The translations under genes and the position numbers were made by a program. Shown one piece after another: positions 3,581 to 62,105 of a stretch of DNA of 64,000 nt. Below the pieces are notes generated by a model. The model was not told where the DNA came from and did not search any database. It saw nothing but the letters and a program-made list of their open reading frames with translations. Position 1 is the first letter of the stretch; each line of letters begins with the position of its first letter. The stretch is from Rhododendron vialii (taxonomy: Eukaryota > Streptophyta > Magnoliopsida > Ericales > Ericaceae), in NCBI RefSeq assembly GCF_030253575.1, contig NC_080564.1:2834501-2898500 (forward strand), read 5' to 3'.

Positions 3581-3996
3581 ATCATTGGTGTCTACTGTCT
3601 AAGGTATTGGACTTGGAGTTTTACTCCCTTGTAATGTAAGTCTCAGGTAGGAAACCCCTGGATACTATCAATTTTTTGAGATTAGTTAAGTATATTTTTT
3701 GTTTTATGGGATAAGTTATTCTCTCACAATACATCATATTTAATTTTAAAAAATAAATACATACTTATTTTAGTTAGTGGAACGATAGCCCAAATGCTTC
3801 TCTTCCCTTGACCAATGGACGATAAGATTGGAGCCCGAGGAAATTTTTAAGGTGTGTGTAAACTACTCCAATAAACCCCTACGTTTTGAGTAGAGAGTGA
3901 CATCAACACCATATATATAACTAGTGCTTATCCGTGCCTACGGCACTACCCACTCCGTCTCGTGCCTACAGCACTACCAACGATGGTGCAAATCAC

Positions 3997-4147
3997 GTAA
4001 ACACCAAGTTGCATTGAAAAGATCCAAATCCAACTATTCCCTCCTTCTCTAAATAAATGTCTGGTCCGTAAACGTAGGCCCTTAATTGAAAACATGCAAT
4101 TTTTTCGTTAAACACCAAGTTGCATTGAAAGGATCCAAATCCAACTA
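3997..4147. repeat. Direct repeat inside Helitron
   Basis: The block TAAACACCAAGTTGCATTGA followed by GATCCAAATCCAACT occurs at about 3997-4034 and again at 4111-4147. A partial third copy (ACCAAGTTACATT) follows. Confidence 0.6.
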
Positions 4148-4185
4148 ATACCAAGTTACATTCATAGGAGCCAGGTTTAAACATG

Positions 4186-4220
4186 ACACACACACACGCG
4201 CGCGCGCGCGCACACACACA
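4186..4220. repeat. (AC)n(GC)n(AC)n alternating tract
   Basis: This is 35 nt of uninterrupted purine-pyrimidine alternation with a GC core. Such tracts can adopt Z-DNA under supercoiling; that behaviour is inferred, not seen here. Confidence 0.8.
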
Positions 4221-4222
4221 AA

Positions 4223-4336
4223 AGACTCAATAAGAGGCAAACTCACACAGAAATATAACGAAAATGGGTTGTCGAAAAAAAGACTCCATAAGAGGCAAAC
4301 TCACACACAAATGTAACAAAAACGGGTTGTCTACAA
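4223..4336. repeat. Tandem duplication, about 57 bp unit
   Basis: Two adjacent copies of a unit containing AAGAGGCAAACTCACACA and GGGTTGTC lie inside the Helitron at 3921-6977. Confidence 0.65.
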
Positions 4337-4416
4337 AGGATGCAATTTGCAAAATGATCATTGTCCCAAAAGTGTTTCCTCATTACTCTTCTAACTATCT
4401 TGAAATTTTCTCTTCA

Positions 4417-5245
4417 TCACTCTTCCAATAGTTCATCCTTTTTGGGAGACAAACCAGCCTTGGTGGCAGCCAAAAGAAAATCCCTTACAAGTTCGTTGAA
4501 CTCTGGCAAAAGGAACCCATCTTTATCTCCACTGCATCTGCTGCTCGGGGAGAGACCAGCTATGGAACTATCAAGGGAAGCCTTATGGTTAGTCCAGTCT
4601 TCCTACAGATGAGCAAAAAAGATATAATAAGTACACACACACACACAATAAATTCAACAAGATAACAATCAACTAATTTGGCTTCATTGTGCAGGAAAAA
4701 AAAATGTGATTCAGGCTAATTAAACGTTCATTAATAGTCTTAACTAACATTCAAGCCAAGGTGCCATTGAGGAATAAAAATAGAATGAACAGAAGCAGTT
4801 AACATCGTTTGATTAAACATTTAAACTTGTGTTCGCTAATTGTCTGATGTTAAAGCAATTCAATTGATTCAATGCTCCACGAACATTTCTGATTTTAAAG
4901 ATCACAAACAGCATCGACCACTTTGATCATACATCCCAAATGGTTCGTTTAGTTACTACGTTGCTACCTAAGATAAGTTGAAAAAGGTGCCTTACAGTTT
5001 TCCTCATTTTTCCATTGGAGTACTTTTGAACAAAAATTTCCCACATATCTGCATAATAAAAGAGAATGGTTTTTGAATCTTATCTCTCTATAAATCCTAA
5101 CCATTGATTTGCTCCATAAATCCTACGGCTCTCTCTCAAACAATATTAATTGCACAATAGCCACTAATTAGATCTCACGTTGTGAAGGCACGGGCAAACC
5201 CTAGTATTCATATGTTCCTTCACCGTCACATGAACACAATATATC
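4417..5245 (-). pseudogene. Captured C-terminal exons of an unidentified host gene
   Basis: Two minus-strand exons with good splice sites and matching phase were found. The last exon (4602-4417, 62 codons ending TGA) follows a CTGTAG acceptor and contains LPEFNELVRDFLLAATKAG. The exon before it ends at 4996 before GTAAGG and reads YMWEIFVQKYSNGKMRKT. That exon is split by the 157 bp Helitron at 5048-5204. Without the insert it is exactly 93 nt (31 codons), open throughout, and begins after a GATGTAG acceptor at 5245. I do not recognise the family. No upstream exons or ATG were found, so this is a truncated fragment carried by the surrounding Helitron rather than a working gene. Intact exon phases suggest the capture is fairly young. 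Confidence 0.6.
5048..5204 (+). mobile_element. Minimal nested Helitron, 157 bp
   Basis: It starts TCTGCATAATAAAAGAGAAT after A (5047) and ends CTAG before T (5205). The 3' end has a decayed hairpin (CGTTGTGAAGGCACG) and a GGCAAAC spacer. Its removal restores an open exon of a captured gene across the junction, which supports both ends. It lies in the opposite orientation to the larger Helitron around it. Confidence 0.7.
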
Positions 5246-6126
5246 CTACATCAGTTTCTTAAATTGCAAACTTCAGCATTAATCTTGAATCGAAAATCTA
5301 AATCCCTACACTTTCCGGGCCAGTAACACCCCAAAATCAAAATGATGAATTTATGTGGATCAAAAATACAAACAGAACAGTAAAAGCAACAAAGTTAAAC
5401 CGGAAAAAAGATAGTTCAAATATTCTATTGACTCTGCCAAGAATATTAAAAATCTGAATCAATCAATTATCAAAAATTGGAACAAAAGGGTGCTACTGCC
5501 TCTATCAAAGGGTGATCATTTCTAATCACAGTGTTTTCCCCTCCTGCATCAACTATACATGATTAATAACAAAATTAAATACCCATAACCCAGATCAATT
5601 TTGATGACAAAGAGGATGTGATTAAATAAATAAAGCCAAATCTGGAGGAGGAGGCCGTGGTGGAGATTGAGAAGGTTTGTTTATCCGTCTGGGCATTCAA
5701 TTCAAGATTCCAAGAATTAAGTGAATACACTCCAAACAGGTTTGGCTCAATTGATAATCAAAGTAGCAACTCAATACATGCAAACAATGTAGTGGAGAAA
5801 TTAATAACTCACGAGTAAGTGAATACTCGATGTTCAAGTTCTAGTCATATACGCCGTTCAAAATACCTCTCATAAGCAAAATAGAAGAGAGATACGAATT
5901 TTGCCAAACACATGATGGGCAACAGAAAATACCTCTCATGAGCAAGTTTAAGCTGCAAAATCCCTGGCACTCTTCTCCTCCACAAAGCCATTTTTTTTTT
6001 GTAAACTATTTTTGAGAGTTCATTCGATTGATCAAATCAAATACCTATGTCTCCAATCATGGAAATACGCTAATTTCCGTATGTGAAACTTTCATGCCCT
6101 TATATTTTTAAGTGTTTGTGATTTTG

Positions 6127-6156
6127 GTTGTGCCGTAAGCATGGGTAATACTCTAG
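6127..6156 (+). mobile_element. Helitron 3' terminus
   Basis: TTGTGCCGTAAGCATGGGTA followed by ATACTCTAG and then T matches the hairpin-plus-CTAG|T end of the local Helitron family. The matching 5' end was not located, so this is either an older nested copy or an internal terminus. Confidence 0.5.
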
Positions 6157-6977
6157 TTGAAAAAAAAAAGTCCCCCTTTCCCCTTTTTTTTTTCACATGC
6201 ATGTCGACAGAAACAGACACGTTCCAAAAAAAAGAAAAAAACTAACACCAAAAACTGCCAACGATGATCCCAAAATAGCATTGCCTTTGCTTTCAAACAC
6301 CAAAACTCCAAAAAAAAATAGAGACAAAAAATCCAAAAAACTTTCAATCCCAATAAACTCCAAAAAATTTCAAATACCTTTGCTTTCAGGGGGCTTTCTT
6401 GGCCTACTGTCCACACAGTTAGACCCCCTTTGCTAACACCAAAACTCCAAAAAAACATAGACCAAAAATCCAAAAAATTCCAAATGCCTTTGCTTTTACC
6501 GTCCACGAAACTCGAAAGATTCGAAAGATTTCGTTTGTCGGGTAAGGAACATTCCACGCAACTTTGTTGGCCCAGATTTAAAAGATTTCGCCGGAGATTT
6601 GAAAGAGCAGTGTCGAGAGAGAAAGAGAGTTGTTGGCCTAGATTTGAAAGATTTCACCGGAGATTCGAAAGAGCCGTGTCGAGATCAAGATTGAGAGAGA
6701 GAGACCCAAACTCTCGAAAGAGCCGTGTCGAGAGAGGGGAGCGAGAGAAAGAGACCCAAACGCCAACAAAAGCGCACGGTTTTTTTTTTATGCTTCCTGT
6801 AGAATTTGATTTGGGTAAAAAGAATCGATGATATTTTTGTAATATATTTGTAAAAGTGTGGGTATTTTCTTAAGAGAGTTGCAAAGCACACCTTAACTCT
6901 TAGATCAAATGAATCTCAACCCTTGAATCAACTTGTCTTATATGGAGGCCCACACCCTGTGTTTTATTTGGTAGATT

Positions 6978-8666
6978 CCGCTTTGGTCCTTCAACTTCTC
7001 GATGTTACTACAATGTACGTAGAAGACCAACCGATGCCCGTAAAGTTAGTCAACGTAACAAAATGTTGTTTTAATAAAGAATCCAAATTACAGTTCTTCC
7101 AAAAACTGATCCAATCACAACATGTTGGGCCACTCATAGAAGTCTGCCCAATCACAAATTTCAAGAGCTCAATTTTAGTCGAACTCCGTACACATAAATT
7201 GATCCAAACAATCAAGAGAAATTAAAAAAAAGAAGTTAAATTGCGCAAGACTTATCTTTTATTGGGTACCGCCTCCGGACGGTTCCCTGTTCCGTCCGAC
7301 TCTAAAAAGAAACTACTAGAAAATTCACAAGTTGAACTAATCACTTCAATAGAATTTGACGGTGGCCATATTGTCTTCATCCATGTGATGCATAATTCCC
7401 AATCATTGTCACATGCCAGCCAGCTGGTTCATTAATTATTGTTGCCTTGTTGGACCACATATGTTTGTTGTTTACACTAGTTGCATGTGGGAATGGGACT
7501 CATGGTTAGACAAACAAATTAGGATTTTGCTTTCAGTCCCCAACTTCAATTACTCCTTGATCATGATTTGCAACAGTGCAGGGGTGGCCTTAAGATCCCC
7601 TGTCCAACCCGTCTGTTTTATCCCTCTTGGCCATTGATCTCGCAAATCAACGGCTGAAATAGGCAGAACATGCTTTGCTCCAAAACGACGTTGTTTTGAG
7701 AAAAAAGTGTTTGGCCCATCTCAGCCGTTGATGGACGAGATCAATGATGAAGAGGAGTGTGACAGACGAGTCGGACAGAGAATCCGGACTCGCAGGGGTG
7801 GGCCTCTAACCATTGAGAATGTGTGCAAATATTTGTTCGCGTGCAATTATGCATTTTTCCCGATTCGTTTCAGATAGAACAAGAGCTTTCTTTTCTAAGC
7901 ACGTTTGGTTAAATGTTGCATTATTGGACCACATATGTTTGTTGTTACTAGCACCTCTAGTTGCATGTGGGATTCATCGCAAATTATTGCAGGACCCATC
8001 CTTTGTCTGTTACTCCATAATTCACAGTGATTGTTAATATCGCATGGCCCCACAAAATTTGGGTGGTTTTTCTCACACGTTAATGACGGGTGTTTCTACT
8101 TTTCAATAAATTGTAGACTACATACTTTTTATTTTGTGTTTATTCAAATTTTTTTCGTGTTTGTTTACTTTACGCCAAGATTTTTTATATTATTGACTCT
8201 TTTCTAGACCAGAGAAATCAAAAAAGTAAAAGAAATTGACTTTCACATAAGTATTTTCGAAAAATATCTAAGCAAAAAAATTCACAAAAATTAGGACATT
8301 TATACAAGTATTTTTTTGAAATATTCAAGAAAAAGCTCACAAAGTCAGCTTTTTGATATTTCAAAATAAAAATGCCTCCGCGCACGGCTCCTTCTGTCCT
8401 GTTGTTGGGACGGTGAGATGTGGTCTCTCTCTCTCTCTCTCTCTCTCTAGATTCAGGGGCGATGAATTTTCCTTATTTATAGGAGATGGAAGTTGTACAT
8501 GGAACAACCAGATAATACTACCTTCAATCCATACAGTTGTATCCTATGGCAATTATTGTGCCAGCATTATATATATCCACACACACACATAGCTAAATTA
8601 GGAGTACTATTTTAAGGTGGCGTGGTGCTGTATAAATTGGAATTGCCGTAAGAATTGGAGAGTCCA
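6978..8666. other. Spacer with MITE and duplicated segment
   Basis: No gene was recognised. A segment around GGACCACATATGTTTGTTGT occurs at about 7452-7480 and again at 7925-7945, each followed by AGTTGCATGTGGGA. An inverted-repeat element lies between them. A CT microsatellite lies at about 8423-8449. Confidence 0.5.
7593..7790. mobile_element. MITE-like inverted repeat
   Basis: Left-arm sequence CCCCTGTCCAACCCGTCTGT and the reverse complement of the right arm, CTCTGTCCGACTCGTCTGT, both run on to CATTGATCTCG and a central TCAACGGCTGA / TCAGCCGTTGA. There is no coding capacity. Confidence 0.6.
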
Positions 8667-10206: not shown

Positions 10207-10534
10207 TATAAGCTAAACCACACAGAAAAAAGATGATGGGCATCAGCTATCAAACAAGAAAAGTAGCAAGGGACAAACGAGTTAAATGTTTTGTCTTTTT
10301 CCTAATTCATGTTTTTTTGTAGTATTAAAGGAGTTAATTAGGACCTGCCGTGTTGTACTCTTCCACTTTCAAGATACACTTTAAGTACTATTTAATTGGG
10401 TTTAATTAGTTGGTCACTTTCGTAGGTTATCAGCTGCTTTCAATTGCTTCCTACTTCTAGAATAATTAATTGGTGTAACAATAGTTGATTTATCTATCTT
10501 TTAATGTGAATCTAATATTTTTAGAACCGTCTTG

Positions 10535-10674
10535 TTATTGTCAGTCCATTGGGCTGACGATAAGCACATTAGAAAACAAGAAAAATACGTATTTCTGTGT
10601 ACTTTTTATACTCTTTAATACACATTCACATACTCACTATTGTCAGCCCATTGAGCTGATTTTAGAATTTTCCT
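10535..10674 (+). mobile_element. Palindromic MITE, copy 1 of 3
   Basis: Each end carries a palindrome of the type GTCAGCCCATTGGGCTGAC. Between them lie conserved AAGAAAAATACGTATTTCTG and TTTAATACACATTCACA. Related copies sit at 14271-14410 (inverted) and 44782-44923. Confidence 0.7.
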
Positions 10675-10987
10675 TTTTTAGAAAGAGAATTGATCTTAAA
10701 GGTATCGTGAACTGTCACTAGGCTTTCTTTGTGATGTTGAGAATAGCTGTCTTTTTTCTTCTTCTTTTTTTGAATTTTTGCTGAAAATTGAAGTTATTTG
10801 TGATTTATTTTGGACTTTTAGCTTTTGTTTGCTGAATTAAAATAATTAAAATCCAAAAATACGTAATCGACTACGAACAAAACTTCACTCTAGACATCAA
10901 ATGAAATTCAACGTGTCAGCATGCTTTAAAAACAAAGCAGATCTTTTTGGTATTATAAGTCCATTAGTGTGCTTTGAAGTTATTTTG

Positions 10988-11044: not shown

Positions 11045-11528
11045 GAAGAATGTGCATTTTCCCTCAAGTCTCAACTCTGCTTTCTATCATAATGAACTGT
11101 TCATTTTCTAGATTTTTAGGTGTGAACTCATCCTTCTGGCTGTACTCCTTACTTTGATTCTTGTGTTTAGTCTGAACTGGATGGTTGGTTGTCTGGATTA
11201 GATTTGTGGACGAGCTTGAGGAAAGAAAGAAAAGCAAATGTATTTGTGGAGCTATTTATTCCTATTTTCCTCTTTCCTTCAAAAGTATACAAGTACAGAA
11301 ACCCCCTTTGTTGTTATTCAAGTCAAGACAGATGGTGGCACCTTCAGGGCTCCTTCCTTTCCTCTGAATCTTGAATTCTTGGAGGGAAAGAAAAAGAAGT
11401 GGAAAAGATTCAGAAGGGGAAAAAAGAAATTGGATAATTCTCATGCATAATCTCTTCCAAAAATTTCTTCCACATTTCCGGGATCCAAACACGGCCATGA
11501 TCGTAGTCCACATCTATGAAATATGCTA

Positions 11529-11743
11529 GTCCCTCCGTCCCTAAATAAGTATCCGACACGCAAACCTATACCTTCAAAAAGATGCATTTGTTTCTTTAAA
11601 AAAATCAAAAAAAATTCACAAATCAATAGATAGCAATGAGTTCTATTAGATTGTGAAAAAAATTTAAATTTTTTAATGAAAAACGTGCATATTTTGTAAG
11701 GCCTAATTTTGCCCGCCGGACACTTGTTTAGGGACGGAGGGAG
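11529..11743. mobile_element. Stowaway-type Tc1/mariner MITE
   Basis: The terminal inverted repeats are GTCCCTCCGTCCCTAAATAA on the left and, reverse-complemented, CTCCCTCCGTCCCTAAACAA on the right. TA flanks both ends (11527-11528 and 11744-11745). The 215 bp length and TA target site are typical of Stowaway elements. Confidence 0.85.
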
Positions 11744-12011
11744 TATCTCTCTTTGCTTGTAAAATTCTTATTAGATTTTGCTGAACTTTCTTGTTATCTT
11801 CATTAATCCTAGTGATTAACTGATTAACTCTCTTTTCTATGTCTTTCTTCCTTACAGGACTTATCTTCTCTTCTACTAGGAATATATAGCTTTAGAGATT
11901 CTTCTTAGTTCACGTAGGCAGCAGCACTTGCAGAATTCGGAGTTCAGAGGAGGAAACCCAACTTCATTTGGAATCAAGTTTTGATTAAAGTTTCACAACA
12001 AAGAGTAGAAG

Positions 12012-15000
12012 ATGGGTTTCTGGTCACTTTTCGAGGTGGCTTCCATGCCTATAGTACAGGTGCTCATACTCAGCTTATTAGGAGCTTTAATGGCAACCAA
12101 TTACCTCAATCTTCTTCCCGCAGATGCACGGAAGTCCCTGAACAAGGTGAGTCTGAGACCTCCTCAATATATTTCGTCGCACCTACATTGTCACGAATTA
12201 GTTTCATGATTCATGTTGTTGATAAGATTTAACTCAATTACAGATTGTGTTCATGGTGTTTACTCCGTGCCTTATGTTTTCAAATCTAGCTGAGACTGTC
12301 ACCTTCAAAGATCTCGTTGCATGGTATGATATACTAGAATGTCTTGCCTGCCATTTCTTTTTGTATTCTTTTCTTTCATTATATCGATTCATGGTGGCCA
12401 AATTTTGACGCTCGAGTCTTTACCGCGTCGTTTCGTGTCAAAAATAAATTTATAAAAATCAAGAATTAACTACTACTCTGTAAAATAATGGTTAAGACCG
12501 AGTAATCGTTCCAACAGGGACTGAATGACCTAGTTACGACAAATTTGATCAGTTTGCAAATTAGTTCAAAAAAAAAAGAGTTGATTGATTTGGTTTGTTT
12601 GGAATAACCTAATTAAATTAAAACAATGAATTAAAAAGTTCGAAAACGATCATGAAAATATCTAGGGTTTGGAATCCACTCCAACCTCGTAACAACAATA
12701 TGCATAGGTTAGGTTTATTTGTTCGAATCAAAAGGGATTATCGCTAGGACTTGCAAATCCTAATAATAATCGTCAAGAAAATAATCGGGTTATTAAAAGG
12801 CATAGACTATCCCATAGCACGGACCGTCTCTCAGTAACAAGGTGTAACACGGTTTGGCCACCTAACGACACGATCCGTCTTACGAGCATAATCTATCTCA
12901 GAACTCCAACAAGAAGTATTTGAAATCCGGAATACAAATACTCAATAGATAAGAAAAAGTAAAATCAATCCGTTCAATTGAAACGGAAAGGGTTTTTAGT
13001 CTCACAATCGATTCGAATAACAAAACCAAAACCCTACACAAAAATATAGTTACTTAATTCTCCCCTAGACAAGGGGTTTTAGCCGGCTATGGAGAAAGAA
13101 GATCCGCTTGAAGTTGAAGGACGAATGAAGAACATGGAGAAAATCTCCTTCAACATTGTATTCTTGCCTCTCCCTTAATAGCTGCTAGAAATGTACCTAA
13201 CCTAAATAATAAACTAAGGGCTTCTTTTATAGTCTCGGCCCATAAAAAATTAAGACTTAAAAACGCAACGTAGATTTCAGTCTGTTGCCCCGCTGGTCCG
13301 GACCAGCGATTCCTTTGTCTGGACCAGAAAAACAGATTGTTGATCGTGATCCAACCTTGGTCGTCCGGACCAACATAGCCTTGGTCCGGACCAGATTTCC
13401 AACTTTCACCTTTTTGCTCCTCTTCTTGCTCCTCTTCTCGCCGCGGATCCCTCCGGAACATCATTAACTCACGATTCCTTTGTCCGGACTAGAAAAACAG
13501 ATTGTTCAAATCGTGATCCAACCTTGGTCCTCCGGACCAACATAGCCTTGGTCCGGACCAGATTTCCAGCTTTCACCTTTTTGCTCCTCTTCTCGACGTG
13601 GATCCCTCCGGAACATCCTTAACTCACGATTATTACTCCAAATCCTTTCCGAATGCTCCGTAAGCCCTGAAACACCACAAACCAATTAAATCTCATTAAA
13701 TAACACTAGATATGGCCCATAAAACCTTTAGTTAAATGGAAATAAACGGGTGCTTTTCAGCACCTATCAAGTCTCATGGAGTTCTGAAAATAAATGCTAA
13801 ATGTGGCCTTTGATATGTGTGCTATGTGTAACAGATCTGATCATTTGTTTCCGTTCTCTCTCCTCAGGTGGTTTATGCCGATTAATGTTGGCCTAACCTT
13901 TCTATTTGGAGGAATACTGGGATGGATAGCAGTTAAACTACTGAAGCCCAAACCACATTTGGAAGGACTGATCATTGCTACATGTGCATCAGGTAATTGT
14001 GCAGATAGAGAGAGCTTCAGCTCCTTCTTTGCTTTTGGAAACACAACTTTGAACCCTCATTAGTTTTGCCATTGTGACATTTGTTTGACAGGAAACTTGG
14101 GAAACCTTCTCTTGATTATTATCCCTGCAATCTGTACTGAGGATGGCAGCCCTTTTGGCGATCACGATGTCTGTAGTACCATGGGACTCTCATATGCATC
14201 TTTCTCCATGGCGGTAAGGCCCAATTCGGTATTTGGATTTTCAAATTTTGTTAATGAGATTATTAAAGAAGGAAAATTCTAAAATCAGCCCAATAGGCTG
14301 ACAATAGTACGTGTGTAAATGTGTATTAAAGGATGTAAAAAGTGCACAGAAATACGTGTTTTCCTTGTCTTTTAGTGTGTTTATCGTCAGCCCAGTGGGC
14401 TGACAATAGCAAGACCGATTAAAGAATACATGATTAGGGCCCTCAGTTGAGTAGTCCTCTTTCACTATACTATGATGCAATTGGAAAAAAACATAACGGG
14501 GGACGTTTCGGAAATTATTCAAATTTATCTCAATTTTTTTATTATCTTTTGTAGATTGGTGGTTTGTACATCTGGACTTTCTCTTACCAACTAGTACGAA
14601 GCTCGGCATTGAAATATAAGGCTCTTAAAGCAGCTGAGGAGGTTTCAAAGGTACCTAACAAGGATTTAGATGCTAATGAGAAGACTCATCTTCTAGAGGG
14701 AGAAGTTCAAGAAAATGTTGCTATAGTCGTGTCATCGATGAACTCTACCGAAGAGGATACAGAAAATCAAGCTGTATGTCTGTTAGTTGAACTTTCCTTA
14801 TATGTGAAATGAAGAAGAGAAAAACGATAAAACAGAATCCAACATTTCTTCTTATTTCCTGAAAGTTTCCCTCATTCAGATTGTGCCGGAAATGTCTGGT
14901 AGCCAAACGGAGAAAGGGAATGCATCATTCTGGGGTAATGCATTAGTAATTCTTCAGCAATTGCTGGAAGAACTATTGGCACCTCCAACCCTTGCTGCAG

Positions 15001-17435: not shown

Positions 17436-23477
<6,042 letters not shown>

Positions 23478-27705: not shown

Positions 27706-30700
27706 ATGGCTCCGGGGACTGATAATACGCCACCGTATTGTACTGAATCGGATGGTGGGTGTGGGGAGGAGAAAGTGGGTCCCGTGGAAGATGAGGATCC
27801 GGAATCGTCGGACAATTCGAACCAAGCTAAGGCCGGGAAGCCTCCGAGGAACCTCTCCGTTATGCGGCACAGCATGAGCCAAGCAATGCTGGTTGGTACA
27901 ACTGACTTAGTGAGTGAAATTCATTTCTATGGCGTTGGAACATATTGTATGCCCAATTAGTAGTATGTGTTGATTTTTGGGATTTGATGCTGCCATTATG
28001 TGGTATAGTTGTTTTGAATTTGTGCGAAAGTTGTTGATTGAAAGGCATAGATACTTTACTAAGGCCAAAAAAAGGGTTGTTTAAAATGTTTATGTAGAGG
28101 TAGATTCTAGAGTTTACATTGATGTGTGTCACATACCAGTAGGTGAATTCGTTTGAAAGATCCCTGATCCTGTGTTCGGATCACGATTATAATGATATGT
28201 GATTTGGGATCAGTTTCTTGTATAATTCTTTTGAAACCTATGCTGGAATCATTAGGTGAAATTCCGGGTTCGAGCTAATTTATTTAAGGGTCAAAAAAGG
28301 TTGTTTCAAAACATTTCTGAAGTAATGTAAGTCAAATGTGATTAGGTGACTCCTTTGAAAGATCCCTGAGACTGTGTTTGGATCATGGATTTGTGGAGGG
28401 ACTGAGGGAGGGAGAGGAGAACATAGAAGGCAAGATAAGATGATTAGGAAATGAAGAAGTTAACTTGTTTCCACAATTCCTCATTTTTGTTTCCCTTGGT
28501 GAATTTCTCCCCGTATCCAAGATCCAAACACATGTTGGAGTATGGGATTTAAACAATCGGAATACCACGTTTTGCGTTCTATGATTCTATTTATAGATGT
28601 TCTTGCTTGGAGAAAACCATACCCAAGTGTCACAGAAGGTACTCAGAGACCTCAATGGCCAACTATGCTGCGTTTACATTATGCGACTATGGAAGTGTGT
28701 ACCCCCCTTATTGGCTTGGTTGTTTCATTGCCAGTCTGTGAAGGTTATAGAAGTTATTGGTCCTCCATTTTGATGCAATTTGAAGATGCAATTTTAATCA
28801 ACTAAGTAGACGTTTTTCACTTTGCAAAGTGTGCCTGTAGTGCAAGTGAATAGGTCTGAGACTGTTTTTCTTCTTTTGGCAGCAAAAGAATTAGCGATGT
28901 TCATTTAAGGTTTTGTGGCCTTGTGATTCTGTATTCGTACTAATTATTCCTACATGCAACCTGTATGTAGGAATCCACTGTTGGTGTTATTGCCATCAAG
29001 TCACCATTTGGTGAGAACTCCGGGTTTTTACCCATCTTTCGTTCAGGTAGCTGTTCTGAGATAGGACCAAAAACATATATGGAGGATGAGTACATTTGCG
29101 TGGATAATCTTCGGGAACATCTTGAAGCAGCTTCAGATTTCCCTTCTCCAGGAGCATTCTATGGGGTGTGTAACTTATGTCAGTTTATTATATTACTATT
29201 TTGTTGAAGCCTATTGACCTTGAGGGGAATTAATTGTGTAAGTATTGATTTCATTCCATAACTTACAAAATCCACAAAATCCAGATGTTGGTTGATGAGA
29301 AAAATAGGCCAAGGATTCTCTGGACCCAATTTTGCAAGTACCCATGTTTCAAGTCAATATGAGCCACAAGATCATGTTCGAATCTCCAAACATAGGTATG
29401 TCAAGGCAAGATCCAGTGGCTGAGAATAACTAAGAAGATGGGTACATGGAAAAGTGGGTAAAGTGGACCTTGGCCTAGAAAAATAAGATGATTTGGCCTG
29501 ATTCCCTTTTTGGCCATCTTGTCACCCTTTTTTTGTAGCGTTGGCGCAAGTGTTTTGACACATCGAACCTGACATAGACATATTGAATATAACCTCTCAG
29601 GCCAAAAAGAAGGCTTGGCCTATCAAGGAGTTAATTATTCAATTGTTAATTCATCCCTCAAATTACTCAACGTCAGTACGTCACTTGATGAATTTTGTGA
29701 TTTGTTTCACAGGTATTTGATGGTCATGGTGGTGTAGATGCTGCATCATTCACTAGAAAGAACATCCTTAAGTTTATTGTCGAGGACTCCCATTTCCCAA
29801 CCGTGGTGAAAAGGGCCATTAGGAATGCTTTTGTAAAAGTTGATCATGCAATAGCAGATGCTAAATCTCTTGATAGGTCCTCCGGCACCACTGTTCTGAC
29901 TGCTCTTATGTTGGGACGGTGAGCAACTGAACTTTTGATTGACGCTCTTGTAAATTATTGTATTCCTTTCGAACTGACCTTCTCTGAATTGTTTCTGTTG
30001 TCTATTTGTGCTTATAAGTTGATACATCATACTTCATAATTAGAATTCTCTTCCAGGTTTTCTTTGTAGCTGTTTAAAGATGACCTAAGGGCATAGTTGA
30101 CAGCTTCCCTCGCCGCCCTCAAATGGGGGGGGGGGGGGGGGTGTGGAGAACCATTCATACAGTCCAGCTTGTCTGTCCCTTTAGATTCTCCTGTTTCTTT
30201 GTCTTTCGTTTTTGTGGATTCGGTAGCTTTATCACTGACCTCCTAATCTGGCTTCCAACGTAAGGTACTAAACCCACCTAAATGACTTATATGTCCATAG
30301 TGAAATTAAGCAATTGAAATTCCGCGTTGGGGATTTACATTGGCTTTGGTTCAATTCAAGTTGAAATTTGTACATTTTACTCTGATAGAGTAGAGCTGCA
30401 TTTATCTGCATCATATGCTCATGCTCAGGGCCCCCCTTTTTCCTCATAAATGTATGACAAGGAACACATGGTCAAATGTTGTATCCTTTCACTTCTTTCT
30501 ATGTAAGGGCAGAGGGGGAGGGCTAGGGGTGTGGGGTGACCCCGCTGGGCTGGAAATATCTCTTATGATATCAGTCATTTTTATTGGTATTTCACATGTT
30601 TGACTCACATATTAGAAATTGTCCCAAAGACCCCCACCAAAATTACAAATTTTGCCCTTTTATCATTGCCAAATGTGACTCTAGGTATTTGACCTCATTG

Positions 30701-31333
30701 TCCAGAAACTCTGGCTCCGCCCAATTTCTATTCATTTTTTTCGGTGCAATTATTTGTCTGAAATTATACCGTCACAGGACGATGGTAATTGCAAACGCAG
30801 GTGATTCTCGAGCAGTTCTAGGCAAACGAGGAAGAGCGATCGAACTGTCCAAAGACCACAAGCCCAACTGCACATCTGAAAAACTCCGGATTGAGAAACT
30901 AGGAGGAGTCATTTACGACGGATATCTCCATGGGCAATTATCGGTGGCACGTGCTCTTGGGGACTGGCACTTGAAAGGTCCAAAAGGATCACTGTACCCA
31001 TTGAGCTCTGAGCCCGAATTGGAGGAGGTTTTCTTGAACGAGGAAGACGAGTTCTTGATAATGGGCTGTGATGGGATTTGGGATGTGATGAGTAGCCAGT
31101 ATGCGGTAACGATAGTCAGGAGGGAGCTTATGCTTCACAATGACCCAGAGAAGTGTTCAGAAGTGCTTGTTAGAGAAGCACTCAAGCGCAACACATGTGA
31201 TAACCTCACGGTGCTTGTGGTTTGCTTCTCCCCAGACCCACCCCCGACGATTGAAGTGCCTAAGATTCAAAAGAGGAGGAGCATATCAGCCGAAGGGTTG
31301 GATCTCCTGAAGGGAGTATTGAGTAATGTCTAA
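27706..31333 (+). CDS. Protein phosphatase 2C
   Basis: Predicted exons 27706-27909, 28971-29165, 29713-29918 and 30778-31333 join in phase to give 386 residues. PP2Cs are Mg/Mn-dependent Ser/Thr phosphatases that oppose kinase signalling in plants. Motifs in order: [11 protein letters not shown] (metal-binding Glu/Asp region), [79 protein letters not shown] and [13 protein letters not shown]. All expected metal-binding Asp residues are present. The acidic N-terminus, the [15 protein letters not shown] stretch and the C-terminal RRSISAEGL resemble the Arabidopsis PP2C27/PP2CG1 group. The start ATG is the first in frame after the leader; an upstream GTG in the same frame is not a plausible start. 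Subgroup assignment is from memory. Confidence 0.93.
30125..30141. repeat. G17 homopolymer in PP2C intron 3
   Basis: An uninterrupted run of 17 G on the sense strand inside an intron. Long G runs are length-unstable and can fold into quadruplex in the RNA (general knowledge). Its exact length may be a sequencing estimate. Confidence 0.75.
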
Positions 31334-34117: not shown

Positions 34118-34506
34118 TACCGACCTCCCCGGTACCGAAATCGTACCGCCGGCCGCCGGTGGGCCGTCTCCGGCCACCGGACGGCCGATCCGAGCCGTCC
34201 AAAAATTAAAAAAAAAAAAAACGAGGGGGCCCGCGCGAGAATCAACGGCATCCGAGGTGTGTAAGGTTCTTGATCCGAGCACCCTTTTTTCGTGTATATA
34301 TGTATATTCGCGGGAATATACATATATACACGAAAAAAGGGTGCTCGGATCAAGCACCTTACACACCTCGGATGCCGTTGATTCCCGCGCAAGCCCCCTC
34401 GTTTTTTTTTTTTTAAATTTTTGGACGGCTCGGATCGGCCGTCCGGTGGCCGGAGACGGCCCACCGGCGGCCGGCGGTACGATTTCGGTACCGGGAGGTC
34501 GGTACC
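34118..34506. mobile_element. Near-perfect foldback (snapback) MITE
   Basis: Two arms of about 192 bp are reverse complements with only a few differences, around a 4-nt centre near 34310-34313. Outer ends are GTACCGACCTCCCCGGTACC and the mirrored GGTACCGGGAGGTCGGTAC. The inner part carries GTGTATATATGTATATTC. The GC-rich arms contain CGGCCGCCGG-type sequence. It lies about 220 bp upstream of the L11 start codon. The close match between arms suggests recent insertion or arm homogenisation. Confidence 0.85.
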
Positions 34507-34727
34507 AATATCATTTCTGCGAATTTTATGAGAGGGAGTCATGAGCCACTAGGCTACCGCCCCGTTGGTAAGTTACCCGTCTAGTTGGGTTTGAGAGCTC
34601 ACTGCCTTTGGTCCAATTCCCTACACACCAAAATGTTGGCCCATTACACTACGAGCCCAATCAAGCCCATTCCTCACTCCTCTTAGACTCTCTCTCTCTC
34701 TCTCTCTCACTACAACAGCACGAATCC

Positions 34728-35195
34728 ATGACGACGCTCAAAGAGATCCTTACCCGACGGCCAGTGGCGGCGACCATCCGCCTCACCGTCCCGGCCGGCG
34801 GCGCGCGTCCAGCTCCACCCGTGGGCCCCGCCCTAGGTCAATACCGGCTAAACCTAATGGCCTTCTGTAAGGACTTCAACGCTCGTACCCAGAAGTACAA
34901 ACCGGACACGCCGATGTCCGTTACCATAACGGCGTTCAAGGACAACACGTTCGAGTTCACCGTTAAGTCGCCGTCGGTGACGTGGTACCTGAAGAAGGCC
35001 GCCGGCATCGAGTCCGGCAGCGGCCGAACCGGCCACGTCGTCGCCTCAACCCTAACTCTAAAGCACATTTATGAGATCGCCAAGGTGAAACAGTCTGATC
35101 CTTTTTGCCAGTACATGAGTCTTGAAGCTATTTCGAAATCGATTATGGGTACTGCTAATACTATGGGGATTAAGGTTGTCAAGGAGTTGGAGTGA
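34728..35195 (+). CDS. RPL11: Organellar (mitochondrial-type) 50S ribosomal protein L11
   Basis: Intronless, 155 residues. L11 (uL11) binds the GTPase-associated centre of 23S rRNA and supports factor-dependent GTP hydrolysis. The N-terminal domain has TIRLTVPAGGARPAPPVGPA, the Pro-rich RNA/factor-binding loop, then LGQYRLNLMAFCKDFNARTQ. The C-terminal rRNA-binding domain has VTWYLKKAAGIESGSGRTGH and ends AISKSIMGTANTMGIKVVKE. There is no plastid-length transit peptide, and the start MTTLKEILTRRPVAATI matches plant mitochondrial L11, so import to mitochondria is inferred. A longer in-frame opening begins at 34608, but the CT-rich tract at 34688-34708 is best read as 5' leader. The 3' part has been copied downstream. 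Confidence 0.92.
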   Translation: MTTLKEILTRRPVAATIRLTVPAGGARPAPPVGPALGQYRLNLMAFCKDFNARTQKYKPDTPMSVTITAFKDNTFEFTVKSPSVTWYLKKAAGIESGSGRTGHVVASTLTLKHIYEIAKVKQSDPFCQYMSLEAISKSIMGTANTMGIKVVKELE

Positions 35196-40465: not shown

Positions 40466-44022
<3,557 letters not shown>

Positions 44023-44650: not shown

Positions 44651-44781
44651 AAGAACGTTATTTGAACTCTCAATTTGTAGAGGTTGTGGTATAGCACAAC
44701 CATACAAAAGATTAAGGCGATCATACACCGGAAGCTTAATTATTGAAATTATTCAGATGTGTATTTTCCTTTTTCGGTCTT

Positions 44782-44923
44782 TCTATTGTCAACCCATTGG
44801 ACTGACGATAAATACACTATAAAATAAGAAAAATACGTATTTCTATGTACTTTATACACCCTTTAATATACATTTACACACTTACTATTGTCAACCTATT
44901 GGGCTGATTTTAAAATTTTCCTT
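44782..44923 (+). mobile_element. Palindromic MITE, copy 3 of 3
   Basis: CTATTGTCAACCCATTGGAC and TATTGTCAACCTATTGGGCT form the two end palindromes. Internal AGAAAAATACGTATTTCTAT matches the copies at 10535 and 14271. The palindromes here are more decayed. Confidence 0.7.
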
Positions 44924-45187
44924 TTCCAAACTGTACTATCAGTTGTTATTCAAGACAAACATGAATTACTCACTGGATTAACAATATTTGATCGGCTTAA
45001 CTTTTTACAAGACTATTTTTCGCATCGAGGACTATAACATGAACAATTCAAATTCCTTCTTGTAGAAAACGCCAAACAACTTGTATTTTTTGTATTTTTC
45101 TCGTTTAATATGATTTTTTTTACTTGCGGTCTACATTTTAATAATTACTACTAATTTCTCTTGTCGAGATTAATGGTTAGTGCCTTA

Positions 45188-46007: not shown

Positions 46008-48089
46008 ATGAAAGGAGGTAGATCGAAGGCGCAGGCGAAGAGCACCGATGCCAAGTAAGTTTTCTCGCGAGATTGCCTTTTGTTTTTTAGTAAAACGTTC
46101 GATTGAGGTTGCGGAGTTTTAGATCTGAGATCTGGAACGGACGGCGGAGATTGTTTGGTTGATTGATTGTTGTTTTTTTTTTGGTTTGTTGTTAGGCTAT
46201 CGGTGAAGAAAACGGCGAAACAGCCGGCGAAGAAGGGGAAAGAGGCCAAGGATCCGAATAAGCCTAAGAGGCCTGCCAGTGCCTTCTTCGTTTTCATGTA
46301 CTCTCTCTCTCTCTCTCTGTGTGTGTGTGCACGTGCGAGAGAGAGCGTTTAGCTCAAGCTGTAATCGGGATTTCCCTAGTGGATAATGAGATTAAGTCAT
46401 TAGGGATAAGTTTAGGAGCGTGTACGAGTGGTAAACAAGCCGAGCAGCTAGTTATTGAAGCTTGGTTTAAAAGTTTAACGAGAATTAGATAAGCTGATCT
46501 CAAACGACCTCTAGTTGAGCCGAAATTGAATAGCTTGTAGTATTATTATCTACCTAATAAAAAACAAGTGTGTGGGGACCATATAAATACAAGTTGAAAG
46601 AATGGCTAAGATTCATTTCATTTGATTCAAGGCCTAATGTGTGCTTTTCAACTCTCTTGAGAAAACACTCACGCCCTTACAAATATATTACAAAAATGTC
46701 ATCAAAGGGTGGGTAGTGCCTAAGCCGTAGGCACAGACAAACACTAGTATACATATACATCATTAGTTGAACAAACTGGGTAGTAGCTTGCTGAAGTTTG
46801 GTTTGAAACTTTAACGAGCTTCAAAAAAACAATGTTCAAGCTTGGTTTGTTTATGTAACAAATTGATATTGGATGAGGTTTTTATGAAGATGAGTTCAAT
46901 TTTGAGTGGCTTGATTTGTTTACCTGCCTTACGTGCGCTTAAGCTGGCCTGGACTCCTTGATTTTTGTTTATGTTGTCATGATAATTTCTATGATTTCTG
47001 TTTAGTGTCTTGTGTGTGATTAATTTATGGAAATGTTGGACTTTTAGGGAGGATTTTAGGAAGCAGTTCAAAGAGAAGCACCCAAACAACAAATCCGTTG
47101 CCACAGTATGTGTTTCTGGATCAGATCTGTGATGTTTTGGTTCGCTGAGTTTTGTTCAGCTATATTTGGAAACACGTTTGTTTTTAATGTAATATTAATT
47201 TACTAACAGGTCGGCAAAGCTGGAGGGGATAAATGGAAGATGATGTCAACAGCTGTGAGTTATTTGACTTGAAGAAAATGTTGTGGTTTCTTCTCTATTT
47301 CTATCTGTTTTAGTTTTTGATTATTTTTTGGTTTGGGACATCAGGATAAAGCTCCCTATGTGGCAAAGGCAGAGAAAAGGAAGACTGAATACAACAAAAT
47401 CATTGAAGCTTATAATAAGAAACAGGTAATATTTCTCGCAATTTAGTTTATAACCAAAAAAAAATCTTATCTGGGTCGGCTTATTTAGTATTGAGGTGTA
47501 ATAAGAAACAGGTAATATTTCTCGCAATTTAGTTTATAACAAAAAAAAAATCTTATCTGGGTCGGCTTATTTAGTATTGAGGTGTTTGACCTCAGTTTGT
47601 TTGCTAAACAATCCTCTATAAACATTTTGAGCCGCTACAATCGAAGCGAGTTTTCACATATGAGCGTGGTTACAACTAACTTAACCCCGAGCTTAACTCG
47701 TTTACTTACAAACCAAGCCTTGAGCTCAATGCATTCACTTATGAGCCAAGCCTTGAGCTGCTTGTGAACAGCGTGGTTTGTTTATAGTCCAAGATATCTG
47801 GAAGCTGTACTGATTTGATTTGATTTGATTTCTATCATAGGCTGAGGGGCCAGCTGAAGAAGAAGAATCTGACAAGTCTGTGGTGAACGATGAGGATGAG
47901 GATGATGATGAGAGTGGAGAGGTAGTTTGATGCATTTTGAATCAATTGCTGCTTGAGTTATTGTGGTGTTGGTTTGCTGATTAACTGTTTCTTGGTGAAT
48001 GACTTCATTAATTGCTTGATTAACAAATGGTGACTAAGAGAGATTCTATATCTTGTTGCTTTGTGCAGGATGAAGATGATGACGAGTAG
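46008..48089 (+). CDS. HMGB: HMGB-type high mobility group protein
   Basis: Predicted exons 46008-46054, 46196-46297, 47048-47105, 47210-47254, 47345-47425, 47841-47921 and 48069-48089 join in phase to give 144 residues, the usual size of plant HMGB2/3. These abundant nuclear proteins bend DNA non-specifically and loosen chromatin. A basic N-terminus (VKKTAKQPAKKGKEAK) precedes a single HMG box (about 34-103: DPNKPKRPASAFFVFMEDFR, KSVATVGKAGGDKWKMMS, DKAPYVAKAEKRKTEYNKII). The acidic tail (EEEESDK, DEDEDDDESGEDEDDDE) normally modulates DNA binding. The last exon encodes only six residues. Intron 2 holds a Helitron and GCTCG repeats. The intron 5 donor is duplicated 86 bp downstream. Confidence 0.94.
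46549..46747 (+). mobile_element. Minimal Helitron, 199 bp, in HMGB intron 2
   Basis: It starts TCTACCTAATAAAAAACAAG after A (46548) and ends with the hairpin GTGCC-TAAGCC-GTAGGCAC, an AT-rich spacer and CTAG before T (46748). The first ~150 bp matches the 5' end of the larger element at 3921-6977 in reverse orientation, including CTTTTCAACTCTCTTGAGAA and TACAAATATATTACAAAAAT. It splits a GCTCG-type repeat. Confidence 0.8.
47414..47585 (+). repeat. 86 bp tandem duplication spanning the HMGB exon 5 donor
   Basis: AATAAGAAACAG|GTAATATT and the following ~74 bp of intron are repeated immediately, so a second copy of the exon end and 5' splice site lies 86 bp downstream (GT at 47426 and 47512). 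Use of the second donor would add an in-frame TAG, so the first is the functional one by inference. Confidence 0.9.
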
Positions 48090-49928: not shown

Positions 49929-50545
49929 CTAGTAAATGAGCCCGTGCCTGAAGGCACGACGCAACACATTTTGAGAACAATTAAATTGAATTACCATTCT
50001 ATGCTTCTAACCAACCCGATAGCAAACCTGTCTTTTTCAGGAAAAGATTTTTTAAATAAGTTTCAAACAGAGTACATCTAATCAATTTCAAGTCAGTGAA
50101 ATTCAAAGTGTCAACAAAGAAAAGCTGCCTAATTTCACACAAAAAAAAAAAAAAATGATCATAACCTAAGCAAATTAAATCACTGCATAACGATATATTC
50201 TTTCAACCTCCCTAATCTCCACAAAATATGCATAAAGCAGTTCGAACAATTCATCAATTAAGTTAGATACTACAAAAAACTTGCACATTTCATCAAACCC
50301 CTCCAGAGAATGCTAACTAAATATAATTCTAATAGCAAATGAGCCTATGCCCGAAGACGCTAATTCAAAAGCATTGACCAACGGCCCTGGCTCATTCAAT
50401 TTTCAAAAATTCTACATAGGATCATCAAAATTTAGTGCATTGAATTCCAAAACAATCAAGCAATTTTTTTAAAGTTAGGGAATACAAATCAAAGAAACTG
50501 TACAATTGCATGTGCTATGGCTCGTACAAACCTAAACCAACTACT

Positions 50546-54651: not shown

Positions 54652-55620
54652 CTACCATAACTGCAATTCCCCTTGAGAACAATGAGAAGAACAGTTGTTG
54701 AAGTTGAATGCTGCGGCGGCCCCTTCACCAAACTCATTATCCACGAACTGCGTTGGATTTCCGTACGACGTTCCCAATAGGGCTTCGGCCAGTGGCGAAA
54801 TTTGGGAATAAAATTCATCCCTAGGAATAAACTTTTGGGTATAATCATTAGCATAGTTTCCAACATTCTGATATGAATCTCCATCAAAGCTGACCAATGC
54901 TTCACCGGACGGCGTCCCGACCGGTTCCACCAGAAACCCATTCCCCAGGCCCAGAAGGGTTTCATCCATTGAAAAAGGTTGAAGATGATTCTCAGCCACT
55001 GGAACAAACTGGTGATCCAAGACGCCATAGAAACTCGAGGGCTGCGCATTCAGTGGAAAACAAGGATACCCAGAAACCAATGGCTCAACTGATTGTTCCA
55101 TAGGCCAGTAATTAAGGGGAAAATCAAGTCCATTCCCCTGTTCATCATTATTCAGCACATTCAAAAACCCTACTCTGTTTTTCCCCTGTTCCTTATTCAG
55201 CACGTTCAAAAGCCCTACTCTGTTTTCCACTGCCTCCAATTTCAAATCCAAATCTCCCAACAAACTCCACAACTCCCCAACTGATAACCCACTAACCCAA
55301 TCATCATCCCAACCCAATAAACCCACATTGGGATTAGTTTTCTCACTGGTGGGTAGAGCCGATTTCTTGCCGCACTCTCTGTACTTCCTGATGATCGATT
55401 TAACTTGGGTCTGGTTTTCCGGCCACGTTTCGACCTCTCCGTCTGGGCCTAGAATGATGGTGCAGGTGTCCGTTCCGCAGAGGATCCCGAGCTCCATTGT
55501 TTTCTTCTTGATGCAGTCTTTTCGTTTCAGGTAAGTCAATCGTCGCGCTTTGGTGTTGTTTATCGGATTGAGGGGTCGGTTTTTTTGATGGGTTCCCAAC
55601 TCCATGGCCGCCTTCACCAT
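54652..55620 (-). CDS. Type I MADS-box transcription factor
   Basis: Single-exon gene of 322 residues. Type I MADS proteins are DNA-binding regulators acting mainly in gametophytes and endosperm. The MADS domain (about 22-85) is divergent: NTKARRLTYLKRKDCIKKKT, MELGILCGTDTCTIILGPDG, then EVETWPENQTQVKSIIRKY. The basic helix and GILCGTDTC core are clear, and there is no K-domain, as expected for type I. It resembles the M-beta/M-gamma group, but the subclass is not settled. Residues around 132-165 hold a tandem repeat (NRVGLLNVLNKEQGK / NRVGFLNVLNNDEQGN). The ATG at 55618-55620 is chosen because it is first. A second Met five codons on is possible, and the N-terminus is longer than usual before the domain. 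Confidence 0.85.
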   Translation of the reverse strand: MVKAAMELGTHQKNRPLNPINNTKARRLTYLKRKDCIKKKTMELGILCGTDTCTIILGPDGEVETWPENQTQVKSIIRKYRECGKKSALPTSEKTNPNVGLLGWDDDWVSGLSVGELWSLLGDLDLKLEAVENRVGLLNVLNKEQGKNRVGFLNVLNNDEQGNGLDFPLNYWPMEQSVEPLVSGYPCFPLNAQPSSFYGVLDHQFVPVAENHLQPFSMDETLLGLGNGFLVEPVGTPSGEALVSFDGDSYQNVGNYANDYTQKFIPRDEFYSQISPLAEALLGTSYGNPTQFVDNEFGEGAAAAFNFNNCSSHCSQGELQLW

Positions 55621-55710
55621 TGTGGTTTCTCGGGAAGTAAATTGCTAGTATCTTCTGAGAACTCCAGTTGGTTTATGTGTATATATGAGGTGATGTACCA
55701 GGGGTAAGGG

Positions 55711-57481: not shown

Positions 57482-59686
57482 TCACCGCCGCGATTTCGAC
57501 TCCGCGCGTCGAAATTCATCGGGCGTCGAAGGAAACAGCTCCACGTACCGCGAACCAATGCTCATCCTGTCCTTCCCCATTGCTTCCTTGGCTTCCTCAG
57601 CTGATGCAAACTCCACATACGCGTCTCCAGTAGTTTTCCCATCAGGACGGCGCCCAATGCGTATCTTATCATCTGTCACATTGAAATCTCCAAAGAACTC
57701 CGCAATGTCAGATTTCGTCACGGAAAAAGGCAGACCCCGCAACTTCAGTACCTCGGTGTACTCCATTTGGTCCTTTTCAAGGGACCTCTTTGATCGAGCC
57801 GGAGGAGGAGATCTTCCGCGGCGGCCATTATCATAATTTTCTCCATATTCCACCTCAGCTGCTACAGCATTGTAATAATCCTGCTTCATGCACCTGAAAA
57901 CCTCCACATATCTCCTCCCCATGTTCTGTCTATCTCTCTGCAGAGCCAACTCAGTCTGCATTGGTGACGCAAAGACCACAAATGCTTCACCTGAGAACCT
58001 CCCATTCTTGCTCACTAATAACACATCAACGATATCTAAACCTGCAAAGAACTTGAAAATGTCGACGTCGCTGCAGTTGAATGGAAGTCCTCTCAGACGG
58101 GCCACCGGGAATGTGGTGGGCTGGAATCCTCTGCCATAGCCATAGGTCTCGAAGCTGCTTGAACTGCTCCTCACTGCGAAGTAGGGATTTGATTCCGTCA
58201 TTCTTTGTCTCTTTGAGCCGACCTCATACCCGTCCGAAACCCCCCCGCTTCCCAACCTTCAATTATTCATACCCAAAAGAAAAAGGAAATCCCCCACTCA
58301 ACCTCGTTAATAAAACCAATCCCAATCCATGTTCCCTTTACTTCTAGTTACTGTATTAGTTTATTAAAGTTTTTTCTCATAGGTTGTGAACCCTCTTACG
58401 ATACTCATATACACCACAAAAAACCCAAAAGTACAGCAAAGTAGAGAGGAAAAACAGTAATTAGAGTCCCATGTTAGAAGTGGCTACATCACTAAGAAAT
58501 ACTAATAGAGGAACCAATCAACAAACTGCAATAAATCGGGTTACTACTAATAAGCCAAAAGAGCTATATGAGCAAAGCTGTCCCAAAACATCCAGTGCCA
58601 TGACTCATCCCCATGATCAGGTAAGACTTGAAACCCAAGGTTCAAAACAAAACTTCAATGCAAGCATAAACTATCACCACTCAACAGAATAATGACAGCA
58701 CAAAGGGCCACAGCTAGAATAGTACAACGAATATGACAAGTACCCAGAATTTGAACAAAAATCACAAAGCAGATTGCAAAGTTAAGCTACTACTATTGAG
58801 AGTATAATTAATATCCAGAACCTTAAAAACTAGTTGTTCCTAAATTCCTAGAAAACACGACATCCACCAATCATTCATGTTAACCAAACATGAGACAATA
58901 AGCCGGAAAACCTCAGCCCCAGAGAAAAATAACCACAAAACTGAGAAAGATTACATGTCCACCCTACGCCGTGCAAACCGAAAATATTTTTCCACGTATA
59001 CTGGCAATACTTCCAACCAAACCTAAAGTTCTATTATGATTATTTATACCCACTGGACAGCAGTTTGAGAAACCAAAAACGTCAAAAACACAGTTCAAGA
59101 AACAGTACTGAAACACACAGGGCCTATTAACACGGCATGAGTAAAGTCTATTAAGTGGTTTCAGTTGATAACAAGCTCTAAATTAAAAAGAAAGTTCCTC
59201 CAGACAAAGCCGAAAGGAGACAACAAGTTCATGGAGCTAGCTAGCTCCTATTATCAATCATGGGGCTTGAATCAAATTGAAGACCATATCAGCAATCATA
59301 AAATAAGCGCAGAAGACATAATTTGCTTTATTACTACAATTCCTTGTTCTTGTCACTTCAAATTCCTTGGCTTATCACAAATCCCTAATCAATTCGTCAT
59401 AATTTCCGTACCCATATATGATTGGAGGACCAAATTTGAAATATAACCATGAAAAATCACTTTGCCTCTTTCTTGCATCGATTTTTTACTAGTTCGCAAA
59501 TACACACAAATCGTACCCAGCCCTAGTTGTAACTTGTAAGGTAAAGGAAGGTCGATGCGAGAAATAAGTACACCACAATAACAGATATAGATGTTCAGTA
59601 CATACAAACACAATTTGATTAAAGAAAGGTCGAAGCAAATAAAGGAAATAGAAAGTGTTCTCAACTTACCCTCTCGATCCGTACAT
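57482..59686 (-). CDS. Two-RRM hnRNP H/F-like RNA-binding protein
   Basis: Two coding exons are predicted: 59686-59670 (17 nt, MYGSR plus two bases of Gly) and 58256-57482, joined across a GTAAGT donor and an AATTGAAG acceptor to give 263 residues. The large exon alone opens with TTG after an in-frame TGA, so the upstream exon is needed to supply an ATG. It restores MYGSRG-LGSGGVSDGYEVGS, the start I recall for plant homologues. RRM1 (about 56-130) has VARLRGLPFNCSDVDIFKFF and FSGEAFVVFASPMQ. RRM2 (about 170-245) has EVLKLRGLPFSVTKSDIAEF and TTGDAYVEFASAEEA. The RGLPF and GDAYVEF cores are those of quasi-RRMs in hnRNP H/F and GRSF1, which bind G-rich RNA in splicing control. A charged linker separates them. 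The 1.4 kb intron shows nothing notable. Confidence 0.88.
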
Positions 59687-60810: not shown

Positions 60811-60899
60811 AATCCTACTAAACTTGTGGACCAGTCAACAGAGTAGTTGTGATTCTTGTGTTAAGAGAACTTAGAGAAGTGTCTCGTGATCTCGCCGCA

Positions 60900-62105
60900 A
60901 TGGACGACACCGCCACCACCTTCTCCTGCCCTCCGATCGACCCCACCACCTTCGACGTAATCATCATCGGCACCGGCCTCTCCGAATCCATCCTCGCCGC
61001 CGCCTCCTCCGCCGCAGGCAAAACCGTCCTCCACCTCGACCCCAACCCCTTCTACGGCTCCCACTTCTCCTCCCTCCCCCTCTCCGACGTCCCCTCCTTT
61101 CTCCTCTCCCACTCCCACGCCGTTCCACTCCCCCGCGAGGATCTCGTCACCCCCTCTCCGTCCGACGCCGTTTTAGTCCCCGTGGATCTCACCACCCGCC
61201 CCGTCTACTCGCACATCGAGATCTACTCTCACTCCACCGACCTTCTCGAACATTCCAGGAAGTTTAACCTAGATTTGGCCGGACCTAGGGTTTTGTTCTG
61301 CGCTGATTCAGCCGTTGATTTAATGCTGAAATCAGGGGCTAATCAGTACGTGGAGTTTAAAAACGTGGATGGGACCTATGTGTGCGGTGGCGACGGGAAG
61401 CTATCGAGCGTGCCGGCCTCGCGGTCGGCGGTGTTCAAGGACGCGAGCTTAGGGCTGATGGAGAAGAATCGTCTGGGGAGTTTTTTCAAGCTGGTTGAGG
61501 GGCATTTGAAAGGGACGGGGTCGGATGGGAGTAGGAGGATTTCGGAGGAGGATTTGGAGAGGCCATTTGTCGAATTCTTGGACAAAATCCGGTTTCCGAC
61601 CAAGATAAAATCGTACAGATCGAATTGCCTTTGCTCTCTATCTGTTTTAGTGAGGGTTCTTTCTGTTTCTATGCGTTTTGAATTGCTCCACTTGTGTTAT
61701 GTTATTTGACTTGGGCAATTCGAAATAGTCATGTAGGATAATATACAATGTTTTACTGTTTATTAGGGTTATCAGTTAGAAATGCAGAAGGGTTTACGTT
61801 GGTAGATACAACTTTCTATGAAGTAAGCAATGCAGTATGCTCCATGGTGATTTGTTTTCTTACGGATAGTTTCATTTGTAGGTGTAGGATTTGGGAAAAT
61901 TCACATTGCTATTGAATGAATTATAGGTTTAATATCACACAGAGTTGAGAAGAGACAATCACTTTAGTCTCTTCAATTCATGTATGTATCGATTGCATTA
62001 TATGTTTAATATCACATAGAGTTGAGAAGAGAGAATCACTTGGACCATGTTCGTTTGGGGATTTTGGATTTTCTCTATGTGCAGGATCCCCAATAAATTC
62101 TCTCA

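Follow-up and report, generated by a model that had tools for sequence, protein, structure and literature searches.

In a window of 64,000 nucleotides from Rhododendron vialii (contig NC_080564.1, positions 2,834,501 to 2,898,500 of the forward strand), a 157-bp Helitron lies inside a larger Helitron of about 3 kb. Positions are counted from the first letter of this window. We are highly confident in an interpretation of the locus as two nested non-autonomous Helitrons, the outer one with about 2.9 kb of cargo, likely captured, and the inner one from a second family. The outer Helitron, on the minus strand, has ends like those of a 199-bp element found at another place in the window, and between these ends some 2.9 kb of additional DNA. 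It holds a 157-bp member of a second, repetitive Helitron family, inserted in the opposite orientation at an A/T dinucleotide. Judging from the families to which they belong, both elements would have moved by the standard rolling-circle route, aided by an autonomous Helitron elsewhere. A preliminary description of this DNA had proposed a Helitron within a Helitron, and this proposal is borne out by copies of the inner element in the genome, by a test on pairs of ends, and by the match of the outer element to the small relative at 46549-46747.

According to a report on wheat elements (PMC13286980), a canonical Helitron has a 5' TC, a 3' CTRR and a hairpin 10-15 bp from its end. The inner element reads TC at 5048 and CTAG at 5201-5204 and thus carries TC and CTRR ends. 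It stands between A 5047 and T 5205 without target-site duplication, as a Helitron does. Its ends were compared with those of two other elements in the window and differ from the closer one at 2 of 15 positions on the 5' side and at 3 of 20 on the 3' side. These two elements were also the source of the end motifs used in a search for correctly oriented pairs of ends within 1 kb. Two such pairs occur in the real window, one being the inner element and the other 46549-46747, itself a motif source; after dinucleotide shuffling of the window, none of 100 sequences contains any. The 3' motif by itself is rare, with four matches in the window at up to 3 mismatches and no shuffle out of 100 reaching as many, for a pattern composed with the end of the inner element in view. 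At 157 bp the inner element is too short to encode a RepHel transposase; no transposase turned up in either the inner or the outer element, no search aimed at one having been made.

The genome from which the window comes (532.6 Mb in 13 contigs) was searched for the inner element at an E-value of at most 0.001. The search returned at least 41 further matches, a lower bound since 40 of 266 candidates were scored, and 22 of the 41 listed span positions 1-157. Twenty of the listed copies, not counting that of the window, were examined with 200-base flanks. All 20 start with TC, and the 3' end is recognisable in 17, as CTAG in 14 and in a mutated form in three. These 17 complete copies measure 159-174 bp. 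An A precedes the 5' end in 16 of the 17 copies with both ends recognisable, and a T follows the 3' end equally often (16 of 17; 13 of 14 in the CTAG subset). The three remaining copies, L012, L016 and L022, lack the 3' end and form a single cluster with common flanks on contig 2; L010, L019 and L020 have common flanks as well, so that distinct sites are fewer than copies. The 157-bp element therefore belongs to a Helitron family that is repetitive in its own genome. Since its ends are common to the genome copies, the inner ends named in the preliminary description are right to the base. The alignment of further copies, which that description had suggested as a check, returned the same ends apart from the cluster of three and the three mutated 3' ends.

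Two arrangements among these copies deserve mention. In the cluster on contig 2 (8.2-8.5 Mb), the 5' 135 bp of the family are kept, and other sequence then takes the place of the 3' hairpin and CTAG; these copies are possibly the 5' ends of longer Helitrons that were duplicated as a cluster. At L009:201-504 (C7:9931024-9931327), two copies of the family lie head to tail with an exact CTAG/TC junction and zero host bases between them. A search of copies L001-L008 against Rfam gave no match.

Read on the minus strand, the outer element opens with TC at 6975-6974 after A 6976 and closes with CTAG at 3924-3921 before a T, and thus shows the TC, the CTRR and the A and T flanks of a Helitron. It had first been placed at 3921-6977; the strand and position 3921 hold, but 6977 lies 2 bp too far and should be 6975. 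Its 5' 150 bp (6976-6827) and its 3' end both match 46549-46747, a second element that has these ends and lies at an unrelated site. About 2.9 kb separates the two shared blocks in the outer element and is absent from the small one. This two-block anatomy would be that of a Helitron with cargo or, conversely, 46549-46747 would be an internally deleted relative. Hairpin motifs stand in tandem at the outer 3' end (3934-3974, minus strand), with CTAG after the last one only, and are possibly the trace of a bypassed terminator. The outer element also contains, at 3998-4147, a remnant that resembles a foldback arm (4035-4112, about 73% identical to 11527-11745) between two 39-bp direct repeats that are 97% identical.

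Table 1. Coordinates of the nested elements, their parts, the small relative and the genes of the window with Pfam matches.
Feature	Position	Strand	Description
Outer non-autonomous Helitron	3921-6975	-	3055 bp; host A 6976, host T 3920; TC/CTAG ends
Outer 5' terminal region (left terminal sequence)	6827-6975	-	78% identity over 157 aligned columns to 46548-46703
Outer 3' terminus	3921-3946	-	Hairpin 3946-3934 (5-bp stem, 3-nt loop), 9-nt spacer, CTAG; aligns to the element 46549-46747
Second, upstream 3' hairpin motif of outer element	3962-3974	-	Without CTAG; read from the sequence
Cargo region, likely captured	3955-6826	-	Absent from 46549-46747; holds the inner element; limit on the 3' side approximate
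Inner Helitron	5048-5204	+	157 bp; orientation opposite to outer; between A 5047 and T 5205
Proposed 93-nt exon, 5' half	5205-5245	-	TAG acceptor 5248-5246
Proposed 93-nt exon, 3' half	4996-5047	-	GTAAG donor 4995-4991
Proposed last exon	4417-4602	-	61 codons and TGA; preceded by a T-rich stretch and CTGTAG
Small relative in the Helitron family of the outer element	46549-46747	+	199 bp; without cargo
Genes with Pfam matches	18998-22057, 30569-31330, 34572-35192, 41816-42706, 54655-55644, 57485-58258, 60822-61706		Types found: ligand-gated ion channel with receptor domain, PP2C, ribosomal L11, protein kinase, MADS-box (SRF-TF), RRM, GDI

The cargo was likely captured, and two of its stretches have been proposed as exons. 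When the insert 5048-5204 is excised, 93 nt become open (5245-5205 joined to 5047-4996), with TAG before and GTAAG after them, and the joined frame is in phase 0 with 4602-4417. With the insert present the frame is lost and stops are met, 157 being 3 x 52 + 1. Codon scores were trained on 1454 codons from eight open frames with Pfam matches (10 frames were scanned, of which two had none), some of the ranges being stretched beyond the Pfam match itself; the segments scored overlap, and the fractions given here are thus not independent probabilities. The downstream stretch 4602-4417, taken as 61 codons without the stop, scores 0.208; among 293 open non-coding segments in the window 1.4% attain this value, and 64% of 325 coding segments score the same or lower. 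The openness of these 61 codons alone is unremarkable (147 of 200 shuffles). Combined, the two stretches have a score that 4.8% of 63 open non-coding segments attain. The stretch 4602-4417 is probably coding in origin, and gene capture is plausible for this downstream exon.

Several results weigh against the interpretation of nested Helitrons with a likely captured cargo. The 5' end motif alone is not rare: allowing up to 2 mismatches, the window has six matches, a number reached in 5 of 100 shuffles. In the window copy of the inner element, the hairpin expected 10-15 nt before the 3' end lacks its left arm, the longest perfect arm is 4 nt, and the fold is no better than that of shuffled sequence (z-score -0.62, 48 of 200 shuffles equal). 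The outer 3' hairpin is short and its folding is not significant, 21 of 200 shuffles being as stable. In the emptied cargo, the 93-nt stretch is the single phase-0 open exon of the form YAG...GTRAG between 60 and 200 nt long, and at least one such exon occurs in 37 of 200 shuffled cargos. In codon use it scores -0.123 bits per codon; 51% of 1309 open non-coding segments do as well or better, and just 1.2% of 405 coding segments score this low. The two exon peptides, the split exon being represented by 26 of its residues, matched no Pfam family. The joined peptide returned five PDB sequences up to an E-value of 10 and none below 1.2; the best, a histone methyltransferase (E 1.2 over 19 residues), was judged a chance match. 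Ten further frames of the outer element gave no Pfam match above the cut-off, and two weak ones below it, the better being a phage baseplate domain at E 0.0074, were likewise put down to chance.

These results bear on what the cargo is and on when the inner element entered it. The two stretches may be true exons of one captured gene, the 93-nt exon having been broken by the inner Helitron after capture; we hold this possible, without favouring it. The open phase-0 frame obtained by excision, with its splice signals and its compatibility with 4602-4417, the fact that no other such exon exists in the emptied cargo and the coding-like score of the two stretches together all fit such a gene, but comparable exons arise in shuffled cargo, the 93 nt have a codon score usual for non-coding DNA, the searches returned no Pfam family and no credible PDB match, and one copy cannot give the order of events. 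The split exon is weak because 37 of 200 shuffles match it and its codon use looks non-coding; on openness and splice motifs it is no better than chance. The preliminary description, which had seen two phase-compatible exons of a host gene here, was correct on the length, openness, TAG/GTAAG signals and phase of the 93-nt stretch, and the downstream exon is coding-like, but the splice-flanked openness does not rise above chance and the split exon does not look coding by its codon use. A single copy gives no basis for its dating of the events, with capture first and nested insertion second, because the insert could already have sat in the donor gene at capture. Such an origin, with the inner element resident at the donor site, perhaps within an intron or a degenerate duplicate, and captured along with the gene piece, fits the single copy equally well, and the family is repetitive in the genome, so further loci carry copies too; we nevertheless consider it unlikely. 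An insert that preceded capture would have broken the donor if the 93 nt are a true coding exon.

Somewhat doubtful, in our view, is a cargo that holds no piece of a gene at all and consists of intergenic DNA and transposon remnants, its open stretches being due to chance. The openness of both stretches is within chance, the cargo does hold the foldback-like remnant at 4035-4112, and none of the 10 further frames has a family match above its cut-off, but this account has to face the codon score of 4602-4417, rare among open non-coding segments and at the 64th percentile of coding ones, and the T-rich stretch and CTGTAG that precede it. A donor gene and an insert-free copy, if found, would order capture and insertion.

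The nested Helitrons also provide a view of the 3' hairpin in the inner family. The window copy fails to show the hairpin of a canonical Helitron, yet its family has one. The usual family form is the hairpin CGTGCC..AGGCACG followed by CAAACCCTAG, and a perfect arm of at least 5 nt is present in 13 of the 17 complete copies examined, L014 pairing differently from the usual form. A gap of 9-11 nt removes the left arm from the window copy and from 4 of the 17 complete copies, namely L009 (its first copy), L011, L021 and L025. The term minimal Helitron, given to the inner element at first, has to be qualified, the 3' hairpin of this copy not being intact. A tree of the element body was built from 21 rows (the 20 fetched copies and the window copy), five of them labelled arm-less. 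The tree is badly resolved, with 1 of 18 inner branches well supported. Arm loss takes 5 changes for the five rows compared with a mean of 4.6 under shuffled labels, and the approximately unbiased (AU) test gave a p-value of 0.058. L012, L016 and L022 entered both the group table and the AU test as rows without a label; a separate count of changes that omitted them also gave 5. A hairpin-less subfamily spreading as such is not supported by this poorly resolved tree, in which the five arm-less rows form no single clade. The arm-less copies stand at sites with differing flanks. Copies of the family may have a recurrent loss of the left arm at almost one and the same position, and some may have transposed without a hairpin, a proposal that we regard as quite improbable. 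Given that the tree does not group the arm-less rows, arm loss repeated during or following insertion is at least as good an explanation. If arm loss is indeed repeated, natural copies could show how far Helitrons depend on the hairpin signal.

A further Helitron-like 3' end lies at 49929-49965 on the minus strand, where a 16-nt palindrome with a 7-bp stem and a 2-nt loop is followed after 10 nt by CTAG and a T; 26 nt of this end match the family of the inner element. No 5' end was found for it in the 12 kb upstream with a 12-base motif at up to 2 mismatches.

Nested and gene-carrying Helitrons are already described in print, and the locus is a further example of ordinary transposon biology. 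In maize, more than 90% of identified Helitrons carry gene fragments, and elements that have several termini are proposed to pass through nested Helitrons as an intermediate stage (Dong et al. 2011, PMC3288121). Like the rhododendron elements, the maize elements are non-autonomous, end in CTAG and have extra terminal sequences inside; nesting and gene fragments, the latter putative here, are further points in common. Here the inner element is only 157 bp long and its hairpin is broken. Helraiser, a bat element, has the same TC and CTAG ends; it also has a hairpin upstream of its 3' end and picks up flanking DNA when its end is read through (Grabundzija et al. 2016, PMC4778049). Deletion of its 3' hairpin reduced transposition to 8.8% of wild type without abolishing it, and raised capture by read-through to at least 36% from about 11.7% (PMC4778049). 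Transposition without a hairpin in the family of the inner element would be a natural counterpart of these experiments. Helraiser also forms circles with exact CTAG/TC head-to-tail junctions (PMC4778049), which the junction in L009 resembles. Xuan1, of the Xuan-Feng family of wheat, is likewise non-autonomous and has a 5' TC and a 3' CTAG; its hairpin lies 11 nt from the end (PMC13286980). Helraiser was rebuilt in the laboratory and Xuan1 was shown to be mobile, whereas the elements described here are known from sequence alone. The locus is a clean Helitron within a Helitron, exact to the base, and can help with annotation and with the definition of two families in this genome.

Elsewhere the window contains ordinary plant genes, eight of the 10 scanned frames having Pfam matches, and repeats. 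Foldback repeats lie at 34128-34495 (182-nt arms, 97% complementary), 11527-11745 and 7590-7788, the last seen by eye. Nothing in the window reached the Rfam gathering score; weak matches to microRNA precursors, all below that score, fell mostly on foldback repeats, these three among them, and were put down to the foldback structure. Finally, a dispersed repeat of 150-170 bp is present in three copies (10509-10680, 14264-14435 and 44766-44925) that are 84-87% alike and lie in two orientations.

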